From Dyadobacter fermentans DSM 18053 (lineage in GTDB: Bacteria > Bacteroidota > Bacteroidia > Cytophagales > Spirosomataceae), in contig NC_013037.1 of assembly GCF_000023125.1 (NCBI RefSeq), forward strand, positions 868,001-932,000: a DNA stretch of 64,000 bases, written 5' to 3'. Position 1 is the first letter of the stretch, and every line of letters begins with the position of its first letter. Positions 5,522 through 48,636 of this stretch are shown one piece after another. Below the pieces are notes generated by a model that was not told where the DNA came from, made no database searches, and saw nothing but the letters and a program-made list of their open reading frames with translations. The translations under genes were made by a program, and so were the position numbers.

Positions 5522-7774
5522 ATGAACGATGATAAAAACGCATTGAACCGGCGCTCGTTTCTGAAAGCGTCGCTGCTCTCGGGCGGGGGAATGATGCTGA
5601 CGGTGAATTTTCTGTCGGCTTTCAAATCGGCCGGAAAGGTCGGCGCAGACCAGCCGGCGGATCAATGGACCGAGCTTACGGGCTATATCCAGATTACGCC
5701 GGACAACCGGATCAAGCTCATTTGTCCCAACCCCGAATTCGGCCAGAATGTGATGACTTCGCTGCCGATGATCGTGGCCGAAGAACTGGATGCCGACTGG
5801 AAGAATGTGACCGTTGAAATGGGTCCGCACGATAATGTGAAGCTTGGGCCGCAGTTTTCGGGAGGCAGCAATTCCGTGAGAATGTACTGGAAACCGCTGC
5901 GGGAAGCCGGTGCGGCGGCCCGCCAAATGCTGCGCGAGGCAGCGGCGCAAGCCTGGAACGTGCCGGTGGGAGAGGTGACCACCCGGGCCGGTATGCTTGC
6001 CCATTCCAGTGGGAAAACGGCCCCCTACGGCGCCATGGCCGCCAAAGCCGCCACGCGGCCGATCCCCAAAGAACTGACCCTTAAATCGCCGAAAGATTTC
6101 ACGATCGTACGCCAATCCAAAAAGAATGTGGAAGGGCAAAAGCTGGTCACCGGAAAGCCGCTGTTCGGGCTGGATTACCGCGTGGAGGGTATGCTGATCG
6201 CGATGATCCACCACCCGCCCGCATTTGGTATGAAACTGAAATCCTTTGATTCCGCCGAGGCGCTGAAAATGCCGGGCATTAAAGATGTTTTCAGCCTCAA
6301 ATTGTACGAGGAGGGATTTGAACAGGCTGGTTTCGATACGCGCACATTCAACGACCTGCTTGTGATTGTGGGCAAAACCACGTGGGAAGTGATGAATGCA
6401 CGCAAAAAACTCGTTGCGCACTGGGAGCCGGCGGGCGAGACCAGGAATGTGCTCTCGGGAAGGAACGGGAAACGTGAAGTGACCGTGCCAGGCGCGCTGG
6501 AAAGCTCCGAAACCCAGCGGCAGCAAATGCTGGAATATGCCAAAAAGCCGGCCAAAGAACTGCGGCGTGACGGTGATCCCGAAACCGCTTTCAAAAGCGC
6601 GGCGCAGGTGATCGAACGAACCTACACCGCGCCGTTCCTCGCGCACAACTGCATGGAGCCGATGAATTATTTCGCCCATGTTACCGACGAGAAAGCGATC
6701 CTGGTGGGGCCGCTGCAATCGCCGGGATGGATAGAGCCGACCATCAGCAAGCTGCTGAACCTGCCTCCCGAAAAAATTGAAATACACATGACCCGCATGG
6801 GCGGAGGCTTCGGTCGGAGGGCCTACAATCATTATTTGTCCGAAGCGGCATTGATTTCCAGAAAAGTCAAAGCGCCGGTGAAGCTGATTTACACCCGCGA
6901 GGACGACATGACCTACGGCATTTACCGGCCCATGTACACGGCTACTTACCGCGCCGCGCTCGACGCCAACAAAAAGCTCATCGCTTTTCACGTTAAAGGC
7001 GGCGGTATCCCCGAGCATCCCATTCATCCCAACCGCTTCCCGGCGGGCGCGGTGGATAATTACCTGTCGGAGGGCTGGCAGATTGCCTCCAACGTAACCA
7101 TCGGTGCATTCCGCGCGCCGGGCTCTAATTTCAATGCAGCAGCCGAGCAGTCTTTCCTGGATGAGCTGGCGGAGGCGATGGGCCAGGACCCGATCCAGTT
7201 CAGGCTGGATCTGCTGAAAAGGGCGAAGGAAAACCCGGTGGGACAGAACAACGACTACGACCCCGACCGCTATGCCGGCGTGCTGGAACTCGTTCGCGAC
7301 AAGGCGGGGTGGGGCAAGTCCGGAAGCGAAAAATACAGCCGCGGTGTAGCCGCCTATTTCTGCCACAATTCCTACGCCGCGCACATCGTGGACATGGTCA
7401 CGCGCGAGGGCCAGCCTTACGTCGAGCGGGTTTTCAGCGCGATGGACTGCGGGATCGTGGTAAATCCCGACGCCGCCACGAATATGGTGCAGGGCGCGGT
7501 GGTGGATGGCATCGGCAATGCGTTTTACGGTGCGCTCACCCACAAAGATGGCGCTCCCCAGCAAACCAATTTCGATAACTACCGGATCATCCGCCACAAC
7601 GAGGCCCCGAAAAAAATCGAGGTGCATTTCGTGCAAAACGACAAGGACCCGACAGGCCTGGGCGAGCCGCCGTTCCCGCCGGTGTTTGGCGCGGTTGCCA
7701 ATGCGCTCTACAAAAACAAGGGACGGAGGTTTTACAACCAACCATTCAAGCCCGAGCTCGATAAAGTCATTTAA
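5522..7774 (+). CDS. iorB: Molybdopterin-binding catalytic subunit, isoquinoline 1-oxidoreductase beta type
   Basis: 750 residues from the ATG at 5522. A twin-arginine signal (NRRSFLKAS, Arg10-Arg11) followed by a hydrophobic stretch indicates export of the folded, cofactor-loaded enzyme to the periplasm, carrying IorA with it. Family landmarks include FAPNCMEP-like LAHNCMEPMNY, the cofactor loop MTRMGGGFGRRAYNH, APGSNFNAAAEQSF and the C-terminal GLGEPPFPPVFGA, which holds the catalytic Glu. It has no FAD domain, so electrons leave through IorA, plausibly to a c-type cytochrome such as the dihaem protein at 3271-4236. A strong bidirectional terminator follows. Confidence 0.9.
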   Translation: MNDDKNALNRRSFLKASLLSGGGMMLTVNFLSAFKSAGKVGADQPADQWTELTGYIQITPDNRIKLICPNPEFGQNVMTSLPMIVAEELDADWKNVTVEMGPHDNVKLGPQFSGGSNSVRMYWKPLREAGAAARQMLREAAAQAWNVPVGEVTTRAGMLAHSSGKTAPYGAMAAKAATRPIPKELTLKSPKDFTIVRQSKKNVEGQKLVTGKPLFGLDYRVEGMLIAMIHHPPAFGMKLKSFDSAEALKMPGIKDVFSLKLYEEGFEQAGFDTRTFNDLLVIVGKTTWEVMNARKKLVAHWEPAGETRNVLSGRNGKREVTVPGALESSETQRQQMLEYAKKPAKELRRDGDPETAFKSAAQVIERTYTAPFLAHNCMEPMNYFAHVTDEKAILVGPLQSPGWIEPTISKLLNLPPEKIEIHMTRMGGGFGRRAYNHYLSEAALISRKVKAPVKLIYTREDDMTYGIYRPMYTATYRAALDANKKLIAFHVKGGGIPEHPIHPNRFPAGAVDNYLSEGWQIASNVTIGAFRAPGSNFNAAAEQSFLDELAEAMGQDPIQFRLDLLKRAKENPVGQNNDYDPDRYAGVLELVRDKAGWGKSGSEKYSRGVAAYFCHNSYAAHIVDMVTREGQPYVERVFSAMDCGIVVNPDAATNMVQGAVVDGIGNAFYGALTHKDGAPQQTNFDNYRIIRHNEAPKKIEVHFVQNDKDPTGLGEPPFPPVFGAVANALYKNKGRRFYNQPFKPELDKVI

Positions 7775-39339: not shown

Positions 39340-40218
39340 TCAAACCGCTTCGATCCGCAACGCGCGCGGGTTGGTGCCGGTGATCCGTTTGAAAAAATTG
39401 TTGAAATAGGTAGGGTATTCAAAACCCAGGGCGTAGGCGATCTCGGAAATGTTCCAGTCGGTGTGCTGCAAAAGCGCCTTCGCCTCGGTGATGATCCGCT
39501 CGGTAATGTGGGTAGTAGTGGGCTTGCCCGTCACCTGTTTGACGGCCCGGTTGAGGTAATTGACGTGCATATTCAGGCTCGCCGCATAGTCTTGTGCCGT
39601 CTTTAACTGCAACGGCCTTTCGGCACTCTCGATGGGAAATTGCCTTTCGAGCAGTTCCAGAAAAACGGAGGTAATGCGCCCGGCGGCATTCTTCTGCTGG
39701 TTATAATTCTCGGAGGGCTGCAACTTCAAAGCTTCGTGGATGATCAGGTTAATGTAGTTGCGCATCAAGTCGTCTTTAAACGAATAGTCGGCCTTTTGCT
39801 CCTCTATCATCCTTTGAAACAATGTATTAAGAAACTCCCGCTGTTGCTCCGAAATGTTCAGAATGGGCGTGCCCCCGATCCTGAACAGCGGCGAATGCTG
39901 CAAACTCTCGGTCCGTTCCGCCGCATTCAGGAATGCTTCGGAAAACAGGCAGGTGTAACCCACATAGCTGGTAGAAAGCGTTTCCCAGGAGTAGGGGATA
40001 TGCGGATTGCCGAAAAACAGCACCGTACCTTCGGTTTCGAAGCTGCGGTCGGAATAATGGATTTTGCTCTTACCGGTCGTGAGGCAGATCTTGTAGAAAT
40101 CCTTGCGGCTATACACGCGCGTTGCCGCGCCATCCTGCTCGATCTGGAATACGTTGAATCCCTTTAGTTTTAACTCGTTATTGAATTCGGATACCGGTCG
40201 CTGCTTTATATTTTCCAT
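39340..40218 (-). CDS. AraC-family transcriptional regulator
   Basis: 292 residues. N-terminal cupin-like sensing domain (1-180; FYKICLTTGKSKIHYSDRSFE, FFGNPHIPYSWE). Two helix-turn-helix motifs at the C-terminus: TAQDYAASLNMHVNYLNRAVKQVTGK and WNISEIAYALGFEYPTYFNNFFKRITGTNP. It lies upstream, on the same strand, of the cupin/dehydrogenase/acetyltransferase genes and probably activates them. Its start codon lies only 4 bases from an exact -7 element, so its own mRNA may be leaderless. Confidence 0.92.
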   Translation of the reverse strand: MENIKQRPVSEFNNELKLKGFNVFQIEQDGAATRVYSRKDFYKICLTTGKSKIHYSDRSFETEGTVLFFGNPHIPYSWETLSTSYVGYTCLFSEAFLNAAERTESLQHSPLFRIGGTPILNISEQQREFLNTLFQRMIEEQKADYSFKDDLMRNYINLIIHEALKLQPSENYNQQKNAAGRITSVFLELLERQFPIESAERPLQLKTAQDYAASLNMHVNYLNRAVKQVTGKPTTTHITERIITEAKALLQHTDWNISEIAYALGFEYPTYFNNFFKRITGTNPRALRIEAV

Positions 40219-40222
40219 TTTG

Positions 40223-40230
40223 CAAAATTA
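40223..40230 (-). promoter_or_regulatory. -7 promoter element abutting the AraC start codon
   Basis: Minus-strand TAATTTTG matches TAnnTTTG and ends 4 bases before the ATG at 40218. Transcription would start at or inside the ATG. Either the mRNA is leaderless or this match is fortuitous and a promoter lies further out toward the repeat array. Confidence 0.35.
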
Positions 40231-40310
40231 AGAATTGCACGAGTTTTTGATGCTGGGGTTATGAAAATTGCATTGGGATTTTGGGTGACGTCAGGGCGTT
40301 TATGTTGGTT

Positions 40311-40710
40311 GCTCGGTCAGAAGGAGCATTCTGTTTCTAACAGAACCTTTATTATGTGCGTTGTCGGGCTTCGGCAGAGCCATCTGCTTCTAGCAAAACG
40401 TTTTTATGCTGGTTTCCTGGCTCCGGCGGAGCCTCCTGCTTCTAGCCGAAAACCAGTTACGCATGTTTCCGGTCGCGTCGGGGCCTCCTGTTTCTAGCTG
40501 CAAGCCAGTTACGCATGTTTCCGGCCCCAACGGGGCCTCCTGTTTCTGGCTAAAAATCAGTTACGCATGTCTCCGGCCCCAGCGGGGCCTCCTGTTTCTA
40601 GCGAAAGCTGAACTGCGCATGCTATCCGGCTCCGTCGGAGCCTCCTATTTCTAGCAAAAATGAATTACGCATGTTATCCGGCTCTGACGGAGTCCTAGTT
40701 GTGGACAATC
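40311..40710 (+). repeat. Stem-loop repeat array A, about 8 units of 52 bp
   Basis: Tandem units, 52 (once 53) bases long, each with a 15-base hairpin followed by TCCTGTTTCTAG and an A-rich, then TTACGCATG, linker. Hairpins include 40419-40433 (GGCTCC..GGAGCC), 40523-40537 and 40575-40589 (GGCCCC..GGGGCC), 40628-40642 (GGCTCC..GGAGCC) and 40680-40694 (wobble-paired). The first two units are degenerate. The hairpin plus its TCCTGTTT flank is the exact reverse complement of the AAACAGGA plus hairpin of array B, so the two arrays face each other. No gene is supported inside. The last part (40695-40710) is a short junction. Confidence 0.88.
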
Positions 40711-41560
40711 AAGAGGGCCTCGCTGGGGCCGATGCATCGGCCCCGGTACGTATTTCTAAACAGGAGGCCCCGCTGGGGCCGATGCATTGAAGCGCAAGCG
40801 TGCAATTTCTACAAACAGGATGCCCCGCTGGGGCCGGTGCATTGGCGCAGGTTTATAATTCTATAAACAGGATGCCCCGCTGGGGCCGATGCATTGAAGC
40901 GCAAGCGTGCAATTTCTATAAACAGGATGCCCCGTTGGGGCCGGTGCATTGGCGCAGGTTTATAATTCTATAAACAGGATGCCCCGCTTAGTCCGGTGCA
41001 TTGGCGCAGGTCTATAATTCTATAAACAGGATGCCCCTCTGGGGCGAATGGATTGGCACAGGTGTATAATGCCTATAAGCAGGATGCCCCGCTGGGGCCG
41101 GTGCATTGGCGCAGGTTTATAATTTTATAAACAGGATGCCCCTCTGGGGCCAATGCATTGGCACAGGTGTGTAATTTTTATAAACAGGAGGCCCCGCTGG
41201 GGCCGGTGCATCGGAGCGCAGGCGTGCAATTTCTATAAACAGGATGCCCCGCTGGGGCCGATGCATTGGCACAGGTGTGTAATTTTTATAAACAGGAGGC
41301 CCCGCTGGGGCCGGTGCATCGGAGCGCAGGCGTGCAATTTCTATAAACAGGATGCCCCGCTGGGGCCGTTGCATTGACACAGGCCTATAATTTCTATGAA
41401 CAGGATGCCCCGCTGGGGCCGATGTATTGGCACCGGTATGTAATTTCTATAAATAGGATGCCCGGCCGGGCCGATGCATTGGCACAGGTATGTAATTTCT
41501 ATAAACAAGATGCCTTGCAAAGACCAATGCATTGCAATTGGTATATATTTTTCTATAAAT
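40711..41560 (+). repeat. Stem-loop repeat array B, about 16 units of 52-55 bp
   Basis: Tandem units built as CTATAAACAGGA, hairpin core GCCCCGCTGGGGC, GATGCATTGG, and one of three alternating AT-rich linkers. Copies near 41155-41262 and 41263-41370 form an almost perfect 108-base (two-unit) tandem duplication, evidence of recent expansion. The last unit (after 41500) is eroded. The linkers recur among units, unlike CRISPR spacers, and no cas genes are near. The array ends a few bases before the start of an epimerase-like gene. Long open frames across it are a by-product of the repeat period and lack coding character. Confidence 0.9.
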
Positions 41561-41566
41561 TCCATC

Positions 41567-42229
41567 ATGAAAATTATCATCACAGGCACGACGGGTATGA
41601 TTGGCGAGGGCGTTTTGATTGAATGCCTTCAACATCCGCAGATCACCCAGGTTTTGAGCGTCAGTCGCAAACCGTGCGGCGTGGAGCATCCCAAGCTGAC
41701 TGAATATATCGTTCCCGACTTTTTAACCTTGCAACCCGATGATCCCAAACTGACGGGCTATGACGCGTGCTTCTTTTGCGCGGGCGTGAGCAGCGTCGGC
41801 ATGAGTGAGGAGCAGTACGAGCGGCTCACGTATGACACGACGATCGCGTTTGCACGCGCTACCGGCCCTTCTCCGCAAATGTCGTTTGTGTATGTGAGCG
41901 GCGGCGGCACCGATAGCAGCGAGAAGGGCCGTATGCATTGGGCGCGGGTGAAGGGGAAAACGGAAAACGATCTGATGAAAATGCCTTTTAAGCAGGCATT
42001 TGGCTTTCGGATCGGTGTGGTGGAGCCTGCTGCGGGACAGAAAAAGGTGCTGCGTTATTACAAATATTTCTCCTGGCTTATCCCCTTACTCAAAGTGCTG
42101 CTTCCGCGGACCGTCAGCACGATGAGGCAGGTGGCGCACGCTATGATCAATGCTGCCCGGAACGGCTACCCTGAAAACGTCATTCAGGTGAAGGATATCG
42201 CCATTTTATCCAAACAGGATCCCATTTAG
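41567..42229 (+). CDS. NAD-dependent epimerase/dehydratase-like Rossmann protein
   Basis: 220 residues from the ATG at 41567 (MKIIITGTTGMIGEGVLIECL). The glycine motif TGTTGMIGEG and later YVSGGGTDSSEKGRMHWARVKGKTEN, with catalytic-like Ser and Lys, fit the atypical/extended SDR superfamily. It is similar in type to the protein at 12804-13436. Any longer frame would run into the repeat array, so the ATG after the array is chosen. Its promoter would have to lie within or just after the array, which makes its transcription unusual. Confidence 0.85.
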   Translation: MKIIITGTTGMIGEGVLIECLQHPQITQVLSVSRKPCGVEHPKLTEYIVPDFLTLQPDDPKLTGYDACFFCAGVSSVGMSEEQYERLTYDTTIAFARATGPSPQMSFVYVSGGGTDSSEKGRMHWARVKGKTENDLMKMPFKQAFGFRIGVVEPAAGQKKVLRYYKYFSWLIPLLKVLLPRTVSTMRQVAHAMINAARNGYPENVIQVKDIAILSKQDPI

Positions 42230-42378: not shown

Positions 42379-43830
42379 TTAATAACCGGGATTTTGCGTA
42401 ATCTTATCGCGGTTGATATCGATCTGGCTTTGCGGGATCGGAAAAACGAGGTTATTCTCGGTCAGCTCGTTCACGAGCCGGATCTGATCCTTTTTACTAT
42501 TCAGCACCGGGATCGCGCGGCCGGTGCGGACCAGGTCGAACCAGCGGTGGCCTTCGAATGCCAGTTCCACACGTCTTTCCTGCTCGATGGCCAATCGGAA
42601 TGCCTGCTGGGTGGCCGTGTTGGCGGCGGTTTTGTTCGGTAGCCCGGCGCGGGTGCGTACCAGGTTCAGATAGGTAAATGCTTCGCCGCTGGCCTGGTAA
42701 GCGGTTTCGTTCACTGCTTCGGCATACATTAATAATACATCGGCGTAGCGGATCAGCGGGATGTTGTTGCCATTGTCGTTTTTGGCAACGGGCACGTCGT
42801 GGTATTTTTTGATAAACCGGTCGGGAATGGTCTGGCCGGCTGCATTGACATAAGATGTTGCCACAGAAACGTCCTTGCGGAGGTCGCCGGTTTCGTAAGC
42901 GTTGACAATGTCCAGCGTCGGCTGGTTATTGCCATCGCCGCCAAATGCGATCACCGCATTACCCGAATTCTGAGGCGCAAAGGAGTTCGGCCACGAGTTT
43001 CCTTCGCCCGCGCCACCCGATTTGTACTGCACATCGAACACGGACTCCTTGTTGTTTTTGTTCGACACCCTGAAAACATCCGCGTAGGAAGGCAGCAATG
43101 CGTAAGTGCCCTGGTCGATCACCTCTTTCAGTTTGGCGGCTGCGGGTGCATATTTTTTCTGTGTCAGATACACTTTGCCCAGATATGCACGTGCGGCGCC
43201 CTTGGTGGCCCGGCCATTGTCGGCAGCGGGGTAGGAGACCGGCAGCACGGCTTCCGCTTCGGTCAGGTCTTTCTCTATCTGCGCGTAAACGTCGGCTTTC
43301 GGGGCACGGCCAAAGGTGTAACCTTCGTCGGGGTTAGCAACCGGTTTCAGTACCAGCGGAACATCGCCGAAAGTTTGTACCAATGTAAAATACACCACCG
43401 CACGCAAAAACTTCGTCTCGGCCATGTACCTGTTTTTCAACGTTTCGTCCATCGTCACACCGCCGATGCGTTCGAGAATGGTGTTGTAGCGGGCGATCGC
43501 ATTATAGCCTTCGTTCCAGCGATTGGAAATGAACGGGTTGGTAGTACGAATGTAAAAACGGTCGAATTCGTCCTGGTCGGTCACCGAGCCGGAAGCAACC
43601 GCCACGGTATTATCCGAAGTGATTTCGCCGAAAACGTAGCTGTTTCCAGCCAATCCTCCCGCTTGCAAAGCCGCATATCCGCCATTGACCGCGTTTTTGA
43701 AGTCGTCGGCGGTTCGGTAAAAATTATCGCTCGTCGGCGTCGAAATGGGCCTGAGATCCAGGAACTCGTCGCTGCACGAGCCGAGCAGCACCGTGGCGGC
43801 GAGGAAAATGTATGATCTTGCTATTTTCAT
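42379..43830 (-). CDS. susD: SusD/RagB family nutrient-binding outer-membrane lipoprotein
   Basis: 483 residues from the ATG at 43830. Lipobox LLGSC (Cys19) followed by SDEFLDLRPISTPTSDNFYRTADDF, the standard SusD start. The helical TPR-like core (FLRAVVYFTLVQTFGDVPLVL) and the C-terminal LNLVRTRAGL, IEQERRVELAFEGHRWFDLVRTG are diagnostic. It forms the lid over the SusC transporter encoded just upstream. The bound glycan or peptide cannot be told; no hydrolase genes lie in the operon. Confidence 0.95.
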   Translation of the reverse strand: MKIARSYIFLAATVLLGSCSDEFLDLRPISTPTSDNFYRTADDFKNAVNGGYAALQAGGLAGNSYVFGEITSDNTVAVASGSVTDQDEFDRFYIRTTNPFISNRWNEGYNAIARYNTILERIGGVTMDETLKNRYMAETKFLRAVVYFTLVQTFGDVPLVLKPVANPDEGYTFGRAPKADVYAQIEKDLTEAEAVLPVSYPAADNGRATKGAARAYLGKVYLTQKKYAPAAAKLKEVIDQGTYALLPSYADVFRVSNKNNKESVFDVQYKSGGAGEGNSWPNSFAPQNSGNAVIAFGGDGNNQPTLDIVNAYETGDLRKDVSVATSYVNAAGQTIPDRFIKKYHDVPVAKNDNGNNIPLIRYADVLLMYAEAVNETAYQASGEAFTYLNLVRTRAGLPNKTAANTATQQAFRLAIEQERRVELAFEGHRWFDLVRTGRAIPVLNSKKDQIRLVNELTENNLVFPIPQSQIDINRDKITQNPGY

Positions 43831-43881
43831 TGTGTTCAATGTTTTGAAAAAATGCCGATCGCTCGGACTATTAAATGCCGA

Positions 43882-46800
43882 TCAGAATCCAATGTTGATA
43901 CCCAGCGTGAAAGTTCTAGCCAAGGGATACGAACCATAATCCACCCCGGCGGCCAATGGTCCCGGAAGCGGTGTGCCGGTGGTGGCAATGGCGGCCGATT
44001 CATAGTTACTTACCTCGGGATTGTAATTGAGGTATTTGGTAAATGTGAAAAGGTTTTGTGCCGAAGCATAAATGCGCACCTGCTGCAACCTGGCTTTGCT
44101 GATCAACGCGGCGGGCAACTGGTAACCAAGGCTTACGTTCTGGATGCGCAGGTAGGAACCATCTTCCACCCAGCGCGTCGAAATCGCATTGTTGTTACCG
44201 GTTGTCCGTGCATTGGCGCGGGGCGTTACGCCGTCGCCGGGATTTTCGGGCGACCGCCATCTGTTCAGTACCGTGCTCAGCTGGTTGGCGTTTCCTTCCA
44301 GGTTTTCAAAAAAGCGGCGGCTCAGGTTCAGGATTTCACCGCCTTGCGAGCCCTGGATCGCTATGTTTAGGTCAAAACCCTTGTAGGTGAAGGTGTTGGT
44401 CATGCCGTAAATGAAGTCGGGCTGGTTGTTGCCGATGATCGTCCGGTCGTTGGCGTCGATCTTGCCGTCGCGGTTGATGTCCTCGTATTTCACATCTCCC
44501 GGCCGTGTTGTCGGGTCGTGCGGGTGGCTATCCACGTCGGCCTGGTCTTTGAATACCCCGATTTGTTTAAACCCGAAGAAGCTTCCGATCGGCGATCCGA
44601 TTTGGGTAATGTTGGTTTCGCCCACGCCGCTCGCGCTGCGGATCGGGTCGCCTGTGGGCCCGAGTGCCAGTACTTTATTGCGGTTCAACGAAAGGTTCAG
44701 GCTGGTATTCCAGACGAACGCTTTGGTCAGGTTGCGGGTGTTCAATGCGAATTCCCAGCCTTTGTTTTCCATTTTACCAATATTCTTTACCGCTGTACCA
44801 AAGCCGGTTAGCGTAGGCACGTTCACGGATAGCAGCAGGTCTTTGGTGATGCGCCGGTAATAATCCACGATCAGGAATACACGGTTGCCGAACAATCCCA
44901 CGTCGATACCGGCGTCTAGCTGCTGGCTGCGTTCCCAGCCCAGCTGCGGGTTGGCCAGCGACGATGGCGCCAATCCGTTCACCAGGTTATTGTTGAAGCT
45001 GTAATTGTCGGACCGCAGCGTGGCTACATAGGGATAGTTGTTTGTAAATGCATTATTTCCTGCCAAACCATAGCTCACACGCAGTTTCGCCTCCGAAATG
45101 GCCGAAATGCTTTTAACAAAATTCTCTTCACTGATCCGCCATCCGAGCGATCCCGCCGGGAATGTCCCCCACCGGTTTTCCGACCCGAAAATGGAAGAAC
45201 CATCGCGGCGCACGGACACATTCACGAGGTATTTCCCTTTGTAATTATAGTTAGCCCTGGCAAAATAGGACGCAGAGGCATTTTCAAGTCGCTGGGAAAC
45301 CGCCGTGGTGGTGCTTCCGCTCGCGCTTCCGTTCAAGGTTTCGACCACGTCGTTCGGGAAGGAGCTACCCGTTCCCTGGCTTTCCTGGAACTGGAACCTG
45401 GTCGATTCCATACCGATCAGTACGTCGAAATTATGCACATCGCGGAGTGACTTGCTGTAATTGAGGGTTTGGTTAAACAACCAGCTCAGGCCCTGGTCGG
45501 AGAATGCAGTACCTGTCGAGACGGACGGCGGCAAAATCTGGTTCAGAGGCATTCGCGACGTGCGGTAGGCATTGCGGCGGTTGCCAGTGAAATTGACGTT
45601 CCCGGTTACGCGGTAGGTGAAATCCTTGAAAAGTTTGAGTTCCGCGTAAGTATTTCCAAGAAGATTGGTCGTAATGTACTGGCTGTTGTACTCGGTAATG
45701 TTGGCTACGGGGTTGGTGATGCCGGGGTAGTTGTAAGGCGCTGCAAATGCGGTTTGTGACGTGTACGAACCATCCGCAGCATAAATCGGGATCATCGGCA
45801 TTACCGACAGCGCCGAGTTGATCACCGCATTGTCGGCCCAGTGGCCCGCGTCGCGCACTTCCTGCTGGACGCGGTAAGTAGGGTTGATATTCAAACCTAT
45901 TTTCAATGTCGGCAGCACATTCACTTCCACGTTGGCACGCATGGTGTACCGGTCCATTGCCGACCGCCGGATCACACCATCCTGCGTAAGGTAGCCGCCG
46001 CTGATGCTGTACCGGGCTTTGTCGCTGCCGCCGGAGGCCGAAAGCTGGTAGCTGCTCATTTTGCCCGTGCGGAATATTTCGTCCTGATAATCGGTATAAG
46101 GAAGCGCCGCTACCTTGGCAGGATCGTCGAAGTTGAACCAGTCGAACACTTCGCCCCGCGGGTAGCGGTAGCGCAGGTAGTCCGTCGGACGCGCGCTGTT
46201 CGGGTCGCTGATGTTGGCACCGGGCACATTGTCGAGGTATGCATTGTTGGAGGCATCTTTTCCGAACTCGGCGAACTGCTGCGAGTTGATCAGGTCGAGC
46301 TTTTTACTAACCTGCTGGAAACCGGTAAACATATCGAGGTTGACGCTGGGCTTGCCGCTTTTGCCTTGCTTGGTGGTGACGAGGATCACACCGTTCGAGC
46401 CTTTGGAACCGTAAATGGCCGTCGACGACGCGTCTTTCAGCACGTCCATACTTTCAATGTCGTTCGGGCTGAGGTTGGCGAAAATGCTGGCATTCACAAT
46501 GTTACCGTCGATCACGATCAGCGGTGAGTTACCCGCGCTGATAGACCCGAATCCGCGTACCTTGATCGCGGGCGTCGCGCCGGGCGAGCCGCTGTTTTGC
46601 TGCACCACCACGCCCGGTATCTTTCCCTGCAATGCGGTTGCCACGTTCGATACCGGCATATCGCGGAGTTCGCTCATCGGTACCGACGAGATAGCGGCCG
46701 TTACATCGGCACGTTTCTGCGTACCATAACCCACTACCACCACTTCTTCCAATGCCTTGGTATCCGTTTGCAATGTGATCTCGACCACGCTTTCATTTTC

Positions 46801-47427
46801 GATGCTCTTCTCCTGGGGTACGTAACCGACAAAGCTGAAAATAAGCGTCGCCGGGCCGTCAGGAACCGCCAGTTCGTAAGTTCCGTCGATATTGGTGCTG
46901 GTCCCGCGCTGGGTGCCCTTCACGACCACGCTTACACCGGGAAGTCCTTCGCCCTTTTCATCCTTTACCACGCCGCGCACCGTGCGGTCGGCCCTGTTCG
47001 CGGCCGATTGTTCGCTCAGGCCTGCCGGCGACGGCTGGCCCCGCTCGGGCATTGCCGGGGTGGCCGGGGCCGGGCGGCTGTAAATCATGTATGACTTGTT
47101 TTCGAACTGCTCAAAAATCAGGTCGAGCGGCGCGAGGGCTTCCGTTAAGATCGTTTCCAGCTTTTCGGTTTTACGTTCCAGGATGGATGCGTCTACCGTT
47201 TTCTGGCTCATCAGCCTGTAATTGTAATTAAAGGCTACGCCATAGCGGCTTGATAAGCTTTTGAAAAACTGCGGCAAGGCTATCCGGGCAGGCTTGCCGG
47301 GCTGAGCGGGTGCTTCCTGAGCATACTTGTGCGCATGAGCGACTAACTGGGCGCGTGCGTAGGAATGCGTGAGCACCCCGGCACTAAAAATTAGCCAGCC
47401 ACTACAAAACAGTAAGTTTTTCTTCAT
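43882..47427 (-). CDS. susC: SusC/RagA family TonB-linked outer-membrane protein with STN domain
   Basis: 1181 residues. After the signal peptide, an STN (secretin/TonB N-terminal) domain at about 46-118 (LPQFFKSLSSRYGVAFNYNY, APLDLIFEQFENKSYMIYS) signals to a FecR anti-sigma. A CarboxypepD_reg-like domain follows at about 148-220 (GVVKDEKGEGLPGVSVVVKG), the TonB box-like region EEVVVVGYGTQKRADVTAAIS, then plug and a 22-strand barrel. It imports a nutrient with SusD. Downstream of fecR (86-base gap) in one operon with susD; the STN/FecR/sigma set makes transcription depend on substrate uptake. Confidence 0.95.
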   Translation of the reverse strand: MKKNLLFCSGWLIFSAGVLTHSYARAQLVAHAHKYAQEAPAQPGKPARIALPQFFKSLSSRYGVAFNYNYRLMSQKTVDASILERKTEKLETILTEALAPLDLIFEQFENKSYMIYSRPAPATPAMPERGQPSPAGLSEQSAANRADRTVRGVVKDEKGEGLPGVSVVVKGTQRGTSTNIDGTYELAVPDGPATLIFSFVGYVPQEKSIENESVVEITLQTDTKALEEVVVVGYGTQKRADVTAAISSVPMSELRDMPVSNVATALQGKIPGVVVQQNSGSPGATPAIKVRGFGSISAGNSPLIVIDGNIVNASIFANLSPNDIESMDVLKDASSTAIYGSKGSNGVILVTTKQGKSGKPSVNLDMFTGFQQVSKKLDLINSQQFAEFGKDASNNAYLDNVPGANISDPNSARPTDYLRYRYPRGEVFDWFNFDDPAKVAALPYTDYQDEIFRTGKMSSYQLSASGGSDKARYSISGGYLTQDGVIRRSAMDRYTMRANVEVNVLPTLKIGLNINPTYRVQQEVRDAGHWADNAVINSALSVMPMIPIYAADGSYTSQTAFAAPYNYPGITNPVANITEYNSQYITTNLLGNTYAELKLFKDFTYRVTGNVNFTGNRRNAYRTSRMPLNQILPPSVSTGTAFSDQGLSWLFNQTLNYSKSLRDVHNFDVLIGMESTRFQFQESQGTGSSFPNDVVETLNGSASGSTTTAVSQRLENASASYFARANYNYKGKYLVNVSVRRDGSSIFGSENRWGTFPAGSLGWRISEENFVKSISAISEAKLRVSYGLAGNNAFTNNYPYVATLRSDNYSFNNNLVNGLAPSSLANPQLGWERSQQLDAGIDVGLFGNRVFLIVDYYRRITKDLLLSVNVPTLTGFGTAVKNIGKMENKGWEFALNTRNLTKAFVWNTSLNLSLNRNKVLALGPTGDPIRSASGVGETNITQIGSPIGSFFGFKQIGVFKDQADVDSHPHDPTTRPGDVKYEDINRDGKIDANDRTIIGNNQPDFIYGMTNTFTYKGFDLNIAIQGSQGGEILNLSRRFFENLEGNANQLSTVLNRWRSPENPGDGVTPRANARTTGNNNAISTRWVEDGSYLRIQNVSLGYQLPAALISKARLQQVRIYASAQNLFTFTKYLNYNPEVSNYESAAIATTGTPLPGPLAAGVDYGSYPLARTFTLGINIGF

Positions 47428-47512
47428 TGGAATACTAATTTTAGGGTTTCAAATAGTTAATGCCACCTGTTGCTTTTTACCTTGGCGGGGACAGAAGCGC
47501 AGGTGGATATTT

Positions 47513-48463
47513 TTATTCTATCACATAGGTTTGGCCGTCTTTCCGGGCTTTTACCTGATAGAGTTTTTCAATCATCTGGAAATAAGAATCAATGGAGTCG
47601 GTAGGGATGGTGCCGGCGAAGGTTTCATTCCGGAATGCCGGCGTGCATTGCACGGTAATGCCGTACGTGTCGCTGATCCAGTCGAATATTTCTCCTAACT
47701 GTTTGTTTTCCAGGTACATCGCGCCATCTTTCCAGCCGAGCCGGGGCTTCGCTTGTACGGCGGCCTTGGCCAACACCGGCTTCACACGGCTCCGGCTGAT
47801 CATCTCATTGGGTTTCAGGACAATGTCCGGCGTTTGGCGCGATTGATCCACTACGCGTACCGCGCCCGAGCGGAGCACGACATTCACGTCGCCATGCCGG
47901 TTTACGACATTGAATACCGTACCGAGCACTTCCACGTTCAGCTCGTTAGCCATATGCACCACGAACTTGTTGTGATTGGCCGTGTGCCGCACCGAAAACT
48001 GGGCTTCTCCATCGAGCCACACCTGGCGGTTGCCCAGCGAATCGGGGGCGTAGCGTAAGGTGGAGTGGCCATTGAGCCAGACTACGGAACCCTCGGGCAG
48101 CACGATATGCTTTCGCTCGCCGTAGGCAGTCCGGTATTCCAGCGGTCCCGGACGGAACAACCACAGCCGCGCGGCGCCGACTATCAATAGAATACCCACC
48201 AGACTGGCGGCCATTACTACCCAGCGGTTCCGGCCAAACGACCTTACCGGGTGGAACGAGCCCGGTTCGTGCTGCTGAACCGTATGAATGATGTGCTGAA
48301 AGAGATCTTGCCCTTGTTCCGACCGCTGCGATTCGGATAGACCATCGTCGGCATCGGTGCCGAGCATTTGCTTCCAATGCATTTCCAGGAGTTCGCGTTC
48401 CTCGCGGGTGGCGGTGCCCTCGCGGTAGCGGCGGATCAGGTACTGCAGTTGCTTCTGGTGCAT
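47513..48463 (-). CDS. fecR: FecR family anti-sigma factor
   Basis: 316 residues from the ATG at 48463 (MHQKQLQYLIRRYRE). A cytoplasmic N-terminal sigma-binding part (1-80) precedes a single membrane helix (about 81-103), then the periplasmic FecR domain (RTAYGERKHIVLPEGSVVWLNGHSTLRYA, VWLDGEAQFSV, LNVEVLGTVFNV) and a DUF4974-like STN-type C-terminus (LGEIFDWISDTYGITVQ). It should hold the divergently encoded ECF sigma inactive until the SusC STN domain signals. Confidence 0.94.
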   Translation of the reverse strand: MHQKQLQYLIRRYREGTATREERELLEMHWKQMLGTDADDGLSESQRSEQGQDLFQHIIHTVQQHEPGSFHPVRSFGRNRWVVMAASLVGILLIVGAARLWLFRPGPLEYRTAYGERKHIVLPEGSVVWLNGHSTLRYAPDSLGNRQVWLDGEAQFSVRHTANHNKFVVHMANELNVEVLGTVFNVVNRHGDVNVVLRSGAVRVVDQSRQTPDIVLKPNEMISRSRVKPVLAKAAVQAKPRLGWKDGAMYLENKQLGEIFDWISDTYGITVQCTPAFRNETFAGTIPTDSIDSYFQMIEKLYQVKARKDGQTYVIE

Positions 48464-48636
48464 GTGATTGAGTTGGTTTATTGTATGACGGGCCACCGCA
48501 ACTACTCCCTAAACCATCGTCAAGAAAAATCTTTGATTCGTTCTAAAAAAATTAAATCCAACGCGTATATGGTGGCATCACTAGGATAATACTTAATATT
48601 GTTAGACTTTTTTATAGAGATCTGTCTCCACCGTTC

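Follow-up and report, generated by a model that had tools for sequence, protein, structure and literature searches.

Enzymes of the IS200/IS605 family and TnpA-REP proteins bind single-stranded DNA in its folded form and cut it at a guide next to a hairpin. For TnpA-REP, single-strand binding and cleavage are treated in the accessible part of PMC8266576. Tandem REP clusters are described in the accessible part of PMC3733652 (2013), so that arrays as such are not new. In the classification of TnpA-Y1 proteins, as far as the available part of PMC6006769 (2018) presents it, subclass 1.2 carries the signature Y---Q--HH, occurs in low copy number in Bacteroidetes and Cyanobacteria, is generally without IS-type terminal structures and has 'no' entered for REP. 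Against this background, it is highly probable that the two facing arrays described here from Dyadobacter fermentans DSM 18053 are a single REP-type palindromic element of miniature kind, probably once mobilised by a domesticated, IS200-like HUH/Y1 transposase of subclass 1.2, whose arms have multiplied locally.

The window, that is, the whole stretch of 64,000 nucleotides analysed, sits in a 6.97-Mb genome assembled as a single contig. Within it, a block of 1.25 kb between divergent genes is occupied by 24 hairpins in two facing tandem arrays. The first-pass annotation had described about 24 tandem units in opposed orientation, meeting near 40.7 kb between divergent genes, with linkers that differ between the arrays, and each of these points was confirmed. 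Array A (40311..40697, + strand), the multiplied left arm of the element, comprises 8 hairpins and 7 tails, mostly of the CCTGTTTCTAG type, with a period of 52 bp; its outermost unit (40314-40346) is degenerate. Array B (40717..41553, - strand), the multiplied right arm, comprises 16 hairpins and 15 tails, mostly of the CCTGTTTATAG type, with a mean period of 53 bp. The period of both is thus 52-53 bp (mean unit spacing 52.2 bp in array A and 53.0 bp in array B, range 50-55), and Tandem Repeats Finder reports period 52 at 40412-40692 (score 281) and at 40717-41514 (score 964). Direct-repeat families place 16 hairpin copies in array B and 7 in array A, in addition to an inner hairpin at 40680. 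With up to 2 mismatches, the tail CCTGTTTNTAG has 22 copies in the arrays, 7 on the + strand (40330-40654) and 15 on the - strand (40754-41509), and the arrays face each other across a meeting point at about 40.70 kb. At no more than 1 mismatch there are 20 copies in the window, 19 of them inside the array, where 2.6±1.6 are expected; none of 100 shuffles of the window reached 20. The linker sequences of the two arrays are not alike. Between the arrays lies a centre (40680..40731, no strand assigned) made of an inner hairpin followed by CCTAG, about 15 nt, and AGAGG followed by an inner hairpin. ORFs listed within the array look like by-products of the repeat. An identity with a known Rfam family was considered and rejected: all six matches fall under the curated cut-offs (24.8 bits against 52 for the end of array B).

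Copies of this composite are scattered through the genome. A search for hairpin end plus tail with up to 2 mismatches, of the kind the annotation had proposed, returned 93 matches against 16 for a reversed-pattern control, many of them paired, + then -, about 110 bp apart; exact composites, in the form hairpin-CCTGTTTNTAG-linker-hairpin opposite its mirror image, number 13 (control 0). The annotation had also allowed for a repeat with no other copies in related genomes; the composite element is found in 28 of 48 Dyadobacter genomes. In the 20 regions read, the layout is a hairpin, the tail, a linker of about 22 nt, hairpin-TCCT, a centre, AGGA-hairpin, a linker, the reverse tail and a hairpin, with a length of 133-158 bp (12 elements). 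The centre of the window array matches this layout by eye, and the window array is one dispersed element with both arms tandemly multiplied, so that one arm has 7 tails and the other 15. Six dispersed copies, picked for likeness and 69-83% identical, are alike from outer to outer hairpin and have unrelated flanks. No consistent target duplication was found at the 12 elements compared, only matches of at most 3-5 bases near the ends; IS200/IS605 elements are likewise not known to make one. Insertion into large inverted repeats is not claimed, the complementarity of the flanks being weak (p = 0.043, 12 elements). At the centre of one dispersed element (L064:3017-3098), six copies of a 14-base GC-rich unit form another type of internal expansion. 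By position, the 23 element clusters, the window among them, divide into 11 at tandem, 9 at convergent and 3 at divergent junctions, which gives no support to the boundary that the annotation suggested. By a simple ORF rule 20 of the 23 clusters are free of ORFs, the overlaps being the window (an upstream-extended ORF), L061 and L075.

What has been maintained in these copies is the structure of the hairpin and the sequence of the tail. Stems were compared at 68 tail matches (up to 1 mismatch, chance matches included) from 23 regions of the D. fermentans genome that lie outside the window. Of their 340 stem cells, 271 are paired; re-dealing the 3' arms, a permutation that leaves relatedness among the copies in place, gave 214.4±5.8, with 235 as the highest of 2000. 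The covarying hairpins include several different stem sequences, and the letters of the 11-base tail are kept. Pairing retained with differing letters in the stem, together with retained letters in the tail, argues that both features were maintained, and the earlier observation that hairpin and flank are kept while linkers drift holds. The description of the units as stem-loop repeats stands in part: the hairpins are real and a whole dispersed element folds as one long hairpin (z -7.9, one element), but single units show no folding advantage over shuffles (z -1.5, -0.5 and -0.1; 2 units, one of them on both strands).

Spread and local growth seem to have run at different rates. Identity among dispersed copies does not exceed 83% in D. 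fermentans (12 of 13 elements). In four genomes that carry the transposase gene discussed below its ceiling is 84% (9/9 elements in G006, 10/10 in G007, 11/11 in G001 and 5/19 in G023), whereas local duplicates reach 92-98%; long-range spread is therefore slow or old, and local duplication livelier. No recent long-range transposition was seen in D. fermentans or in the four carriers. In array B, unit identity is 0.85 at lag 2 and 0.78-0.79 at lags 1 and 3-7, and two pairs of adjacent 107-108-bp blocks are 97% identical; growth therefore probably proceeded via two-unit duplications.

A probable partner of the repeat was found in relatives. A lineage of HUH/Y1 transposases of about 153 aa is present as a single copy in 14 of the 48 Dyadobacter genomes, membership being defined by full length and 69-100% identity, with the next level at 51%. 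In G004 the 154-aa Y1_Tnp gene forms the middle of such an element. All 14 carriers have exact tails no more than 400 bp from the lineage gene (one only in G010), against 0 of 16 loci of the next-closest paralogues and none of the best 30 Y1 loci, two control sets that overlap in part. The annotation's proposal of a substrate of some processing system fits an HUH/Y1 protein encoded beside the same repeats. The median number of composites per genome is 8.5 with the gene (14 genomes) and 0 without it (34 genomes; one-sided Mann-Whitney p = 7.5e-5, uncorrected for kinship). This association is not tight, given its exceptions: D. fermentans and G047 have 13 and 5 composites, respectively, without the gene, and the carriers G010 and G050 have no exact composite, G053 has one and G018 two. 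Moreover, among at least 105 loci with the composite pattern, such a gene occurs in the stretch of at most 8 kb at only one.

The protein has the domain and the HUH and Y residues of a Y1 transposase. The Pfam model PF01797 (Y1_Tnp) is matched at 80.8 bits (cut-off 23), and eight solved homologues are transposases, one of them named ISHp608. The motifs DHxH, WQ and Y---Q--HH are present, with a 2-residue gap between Q and HH in L275, and Y115, Q119, H122, H123, D54, H55, H57, W95 and Q96 are invariant in the 16 aligned proteins, which include the D. fermentans paralogue and L092. That paralogue, 50% identical, is the only PF01797 gene of D. fermentans and was rejected as a resident cognate transposase, its locus being without such a tail. 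It belongs to another Y---Q--HH lineage (L060:7507-7968), with different hairpin repeats in its flank (7380-7500).

The lineage gene has a stable address. By coordinates it adjoins a glutamine synthetase gene (PF00120) in 12 of the 14 carriers, at a distance of 33-661 bp, and the adjacency was seen again in 10 of these 12. Its neighbours are homologous in 13 of 14 carriers; in G016 contig ends interrupt the glutamine synthetase site, with shared neighbours, and in G018 the gene lies elsewhere. In the corresponding gap of the 34 non-carriers, at least one tail (up to 1 mismatch) lies within 250 bp of the synthetase stop codon in 9, D. fermentans included. G012 retains there a truncated transposase gene (52 aa at 81% identity), and in D. 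fermentans, which has no transposase gene of the lineage, the gap holds hairpin-tail-linker-hairpin-TCCT, half an element. The simplest reading is loss from an ancestral site beside glutamine synthetase.

Taken together, the most likely account is a REP/REPtron-like system with an unexpected class of transposase, orphaned in D. fermentans, in which one copy has been enlarged by local duplication. By analogy with related enzymes, the transposase would bind the folded single strand, use the tag CTANAAACAGG on the 5' side of the hairpin for its guide, and cleave and rejoin at the tag, thereby copying or moving elements. Once the gene had been lost, the copies would remain as orphans, altered by slippage or unequal exchange. 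The array itself is most likely a neutral, lineage-specific expansion, and no separate function is proposed for it.

An alternative is that the arrays are a neutral minisatellite, a chance palindrome grown by replication slippage and linked to no transposase. The two-unit duplications of array B fit this, as does the presence of the array in no relative read and of high identity only among local duplicates. However, the same composite is dispersed across more than half of the genus genomes with covarying stems, and its tail marks one transposase lineage and not the paralogues closest to it. Neutral expansion, which the annotation had kept as its own alternative, probably does explain how large the array is; it does not account for the unit, which is dispersed in the genus and for which a minisatellite origin is already unlikely. 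As an explanation of the whole, the minisatellite is improbable.

Still less probable is that the repeats terminate a genuine insertion sequence of IS200/IS605 subclass 1.1 that is still moving, instead of belonging to a domesticated REP system. The NCBIfam models lean in this direction, since the protein passes the IS200 model (66.3 against a cut-off of 55) and fails the REP_Tyr_transpos model (29.2 bits against 80). On the other hand, a moving element would be expected to leave several near-identical copies, whereas every carrier has one copy of the lineage, 12 of them at a single locus, with the repeats outside the gene.

The genes beside the array bear on its local history and on a possible role at this place. 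On one side lies an AraC-type regulator (39340..40218, - strand; PF12833 and PF00165 by domain search), and on the other an ORF (41567..42229, + strand) without Pfam or NCBIfam match, which we take to be reductase-like from its N-terminal sequence and whose ATG is 14 bp beyond the last array unit. Further on, 42379-48496 of the window encodes a SusD family protein, a TonB-dependent receptor with plug and a FecR-domain protein, all on the - strand. No array was found upstream of the 11 AraC orthologues read (L447-L457; 14 exist at 80% identity or more), although in two of them a single tail-like match occurs, at distances of 294 and 1289 bp. At the DNA level, similarity to these orthologues stops at window positions 40200-40246, and the reductase-like gene was found in none of the 1.5-kb flanks of the 11 loci. 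On the other side, among the reductase-like orthologues, homology to the closest one, in G052, sets in at 41548, as array B ends, and homology to that of G024 at 41567; the DNA upstream of both is unlike the array of the window. None of the 29 reductase-like loci fetched has more than 3 tail-like matches. Since an AraC-family homologue (40-61% identity) lies within the fetched stretch at 17 of these 29 loci, the two gene families must have been neighbours for longer, and what looks new is just the present arrangement of the two genes. With homology ending near the array on both sides, the array coincides with a junction not seen in the relatives read. The breaks at 40246 and 41548 give the impression of an array sitting on a rearrangement point. 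A clean empty site was sought and given up, as neither flank can be aligned across the array position in relatives.

That the arrays serve the two divergent genes as a boundary of chromosome structure or transcription, or as a pair of terminators, and were retained for this, an idea that their facing layout between such genes and the 20 ORF-free clusters might recommend, is very hard to credit, because the array stands at neither gene in the relatives read, clusters occur at all junction types, and the unit spacing, 50-55 bp in the window and 49-54 bp at the carrier loci L268 and L269, is at odds with strict helical phasing. With spacings of 49-55 bp, helical phasing of the units was dropped. 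The nucleoid or transcription-domain boundary of the first-pass annotation is unsupported on the same grounds, and so is its suggestion of a source of structured RNA, no array having been seen at the AraC or reductase-like orthologues read.

The presence and absence of an element can be followed more clearly elsewhere, in the gap between an AAA-domain gene, presumably hslU-like, and an esterase gene (PF00756). D. fermentans has an element there; its ten nearest relatives have no tail, and in nine of them the two genes are adjacent. Several tails of their own occupy this gap in the carriers G001 (L352) and G007 (L346), which suggests a recurrent site. In several relatives the gap after the hslU-like gene (L323-L333) contains purine-rich followed by pyrimidine-rich DNA. 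Several D. fermentans elements lie in similar surroundings.

More widely, the repeats follow a general form, consisting of a 5-bp stem, a 3-4-nt loop and 12-14 nt ending in TAG. Of 52 distinct Y---Q--H genes, 41 have it nearby, at a mean of 3.13 per gene, where first-order resampling of the flanks (20 resamplings per locus) gave 0.07; outside the lineage of the window the proportion is 29 of 39. Having been read off some of the same loci, the form is a description and not an independent test. It was absent from two sublineages (9 genes), from L194 and from L271, a member of the lineage of the window. Other Y---Q--HH transposase lineages in Dyadobacter (L191, L225, L279, L281, L282, L285 and L289) are flanked by hairpin and tail repeats of their own, for example GGTGCNNNGCACC and AATATTGGTAG. 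The CCTGTTTNTAG composite itself also occurs, among the matches listed, in assemblies titled Acidobacteria, Chthoniobacterales, Saprospiraceae, Chitinophagaceae and Mucilaginibacter, the non-Bacteroidota assemblies being MAGs that could be misbinned. In the Acidobacteria assembly, a gene 48% identical to the transposase lies between tails (L092), the only such case among the matches listed. Three of the 14 non-Dyadobacter elements among the matches listed (L116, L146 and L154) are without the architecture by eye and were set aside as chance. A phylum-wide distribution of the exact composite was likewise discarded: 5 of 296 Bacteroidota genomes have it, D. fermentans included, so that it is rare in this sample.

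The link between transposase and repeat looks new, in that the subclass is recorded without REP and is here flanked by repeats. In the open-access literature, no publication was found that links subclass 1.2 to such repeats, the sole match for Dyadobacter, palindromic repeats and transposase concerns Frankia, and the 11-mer, searched in six forms, gave no title on bacterial repeats among the matches listed. The main text of RepRanger (PMC12306157) mentions neither Dyadobacter, RAYT nor transposase.

The protein resembles subclass 1.2, as presented in the available part of PMC6006769, in its Y---Q--HH signature, its length of about 150 aa, its low copy number and its occurrence in Bacteroidetes, and its assignment to this subclass is one by signature, length and phylum. 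The 'no' under REP in that same part, like the general lack of IS-type terminal structures, differs from Dyadobacter, where repeats flank the gene, and this entry does not hold there. Relative to IS200/IS605 subclass 1.1 and its gene-less derivatives, the Y1_Tnp domain and the terminal hairpins are alike; those elements have several near-identical mobile copies, whereas the Dyadobacter lineage is single in each of 14 genomes and mostly at one locus. There is also a close likeness to REP, BIME and REPIN repeats with their TnpA-REP (RAYT) transposases, the REPtrons, as described in the accessible parts of PMC6006769, PMC8266576 and PMC3733652. In both, the hairpins are small, carry a fixed tag and form inverted pairs that fold into one long hairpin; the copies are dispersed and mostly intergenic, a single-copy HUH/Y1 gene lies next to them, and every transposase lineage has a repeat to itself. 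As in REPtrons, a single-copy, stably placed gene is flanked by a dispersed palindrome of inverted pairs, although G010 and G050 are without the exact composite. REPtrons proper, in the same portions of these papers, have Y---NP and GT[AG]G at the foot of the hairpin; the Dyadobacter protein lies on the IS200 side (class 1, Y---Q--HH), its tag is an 11-mer 2 nt 5' of the hairpin (on the CTANAAACAGG strand), and its elements, unlike REPtron repeats, usually have four hairpins each.

For the window itself the message is an ordinary one, that of an orphan repeat that grew. The wider comparison pairs an orphan class of transposase with a repeat family and a readable tag, which makes recognition directly testable, and a single genus offers a natural series, with the gene present, broken or absent, in which to ask how a domesticated transposase affects its repeats. 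It is somewhat more likely than not that subclass 1.2 joins classes 2 and 3 as a group that makes REPs, under a grammar of its own: a short variable hairpin and a tail of about 13 nt that closes with TAG and differs between lineages, arranged in four-hairpin palindromes, the CCTGTTTNTAG version of which occurs also in assemblies with titles from outside Bacteroidota, once with its gene. The pairing of class and repeat hints that the IS200 side of the Y1 family, too, gave rise to REP-like systems.
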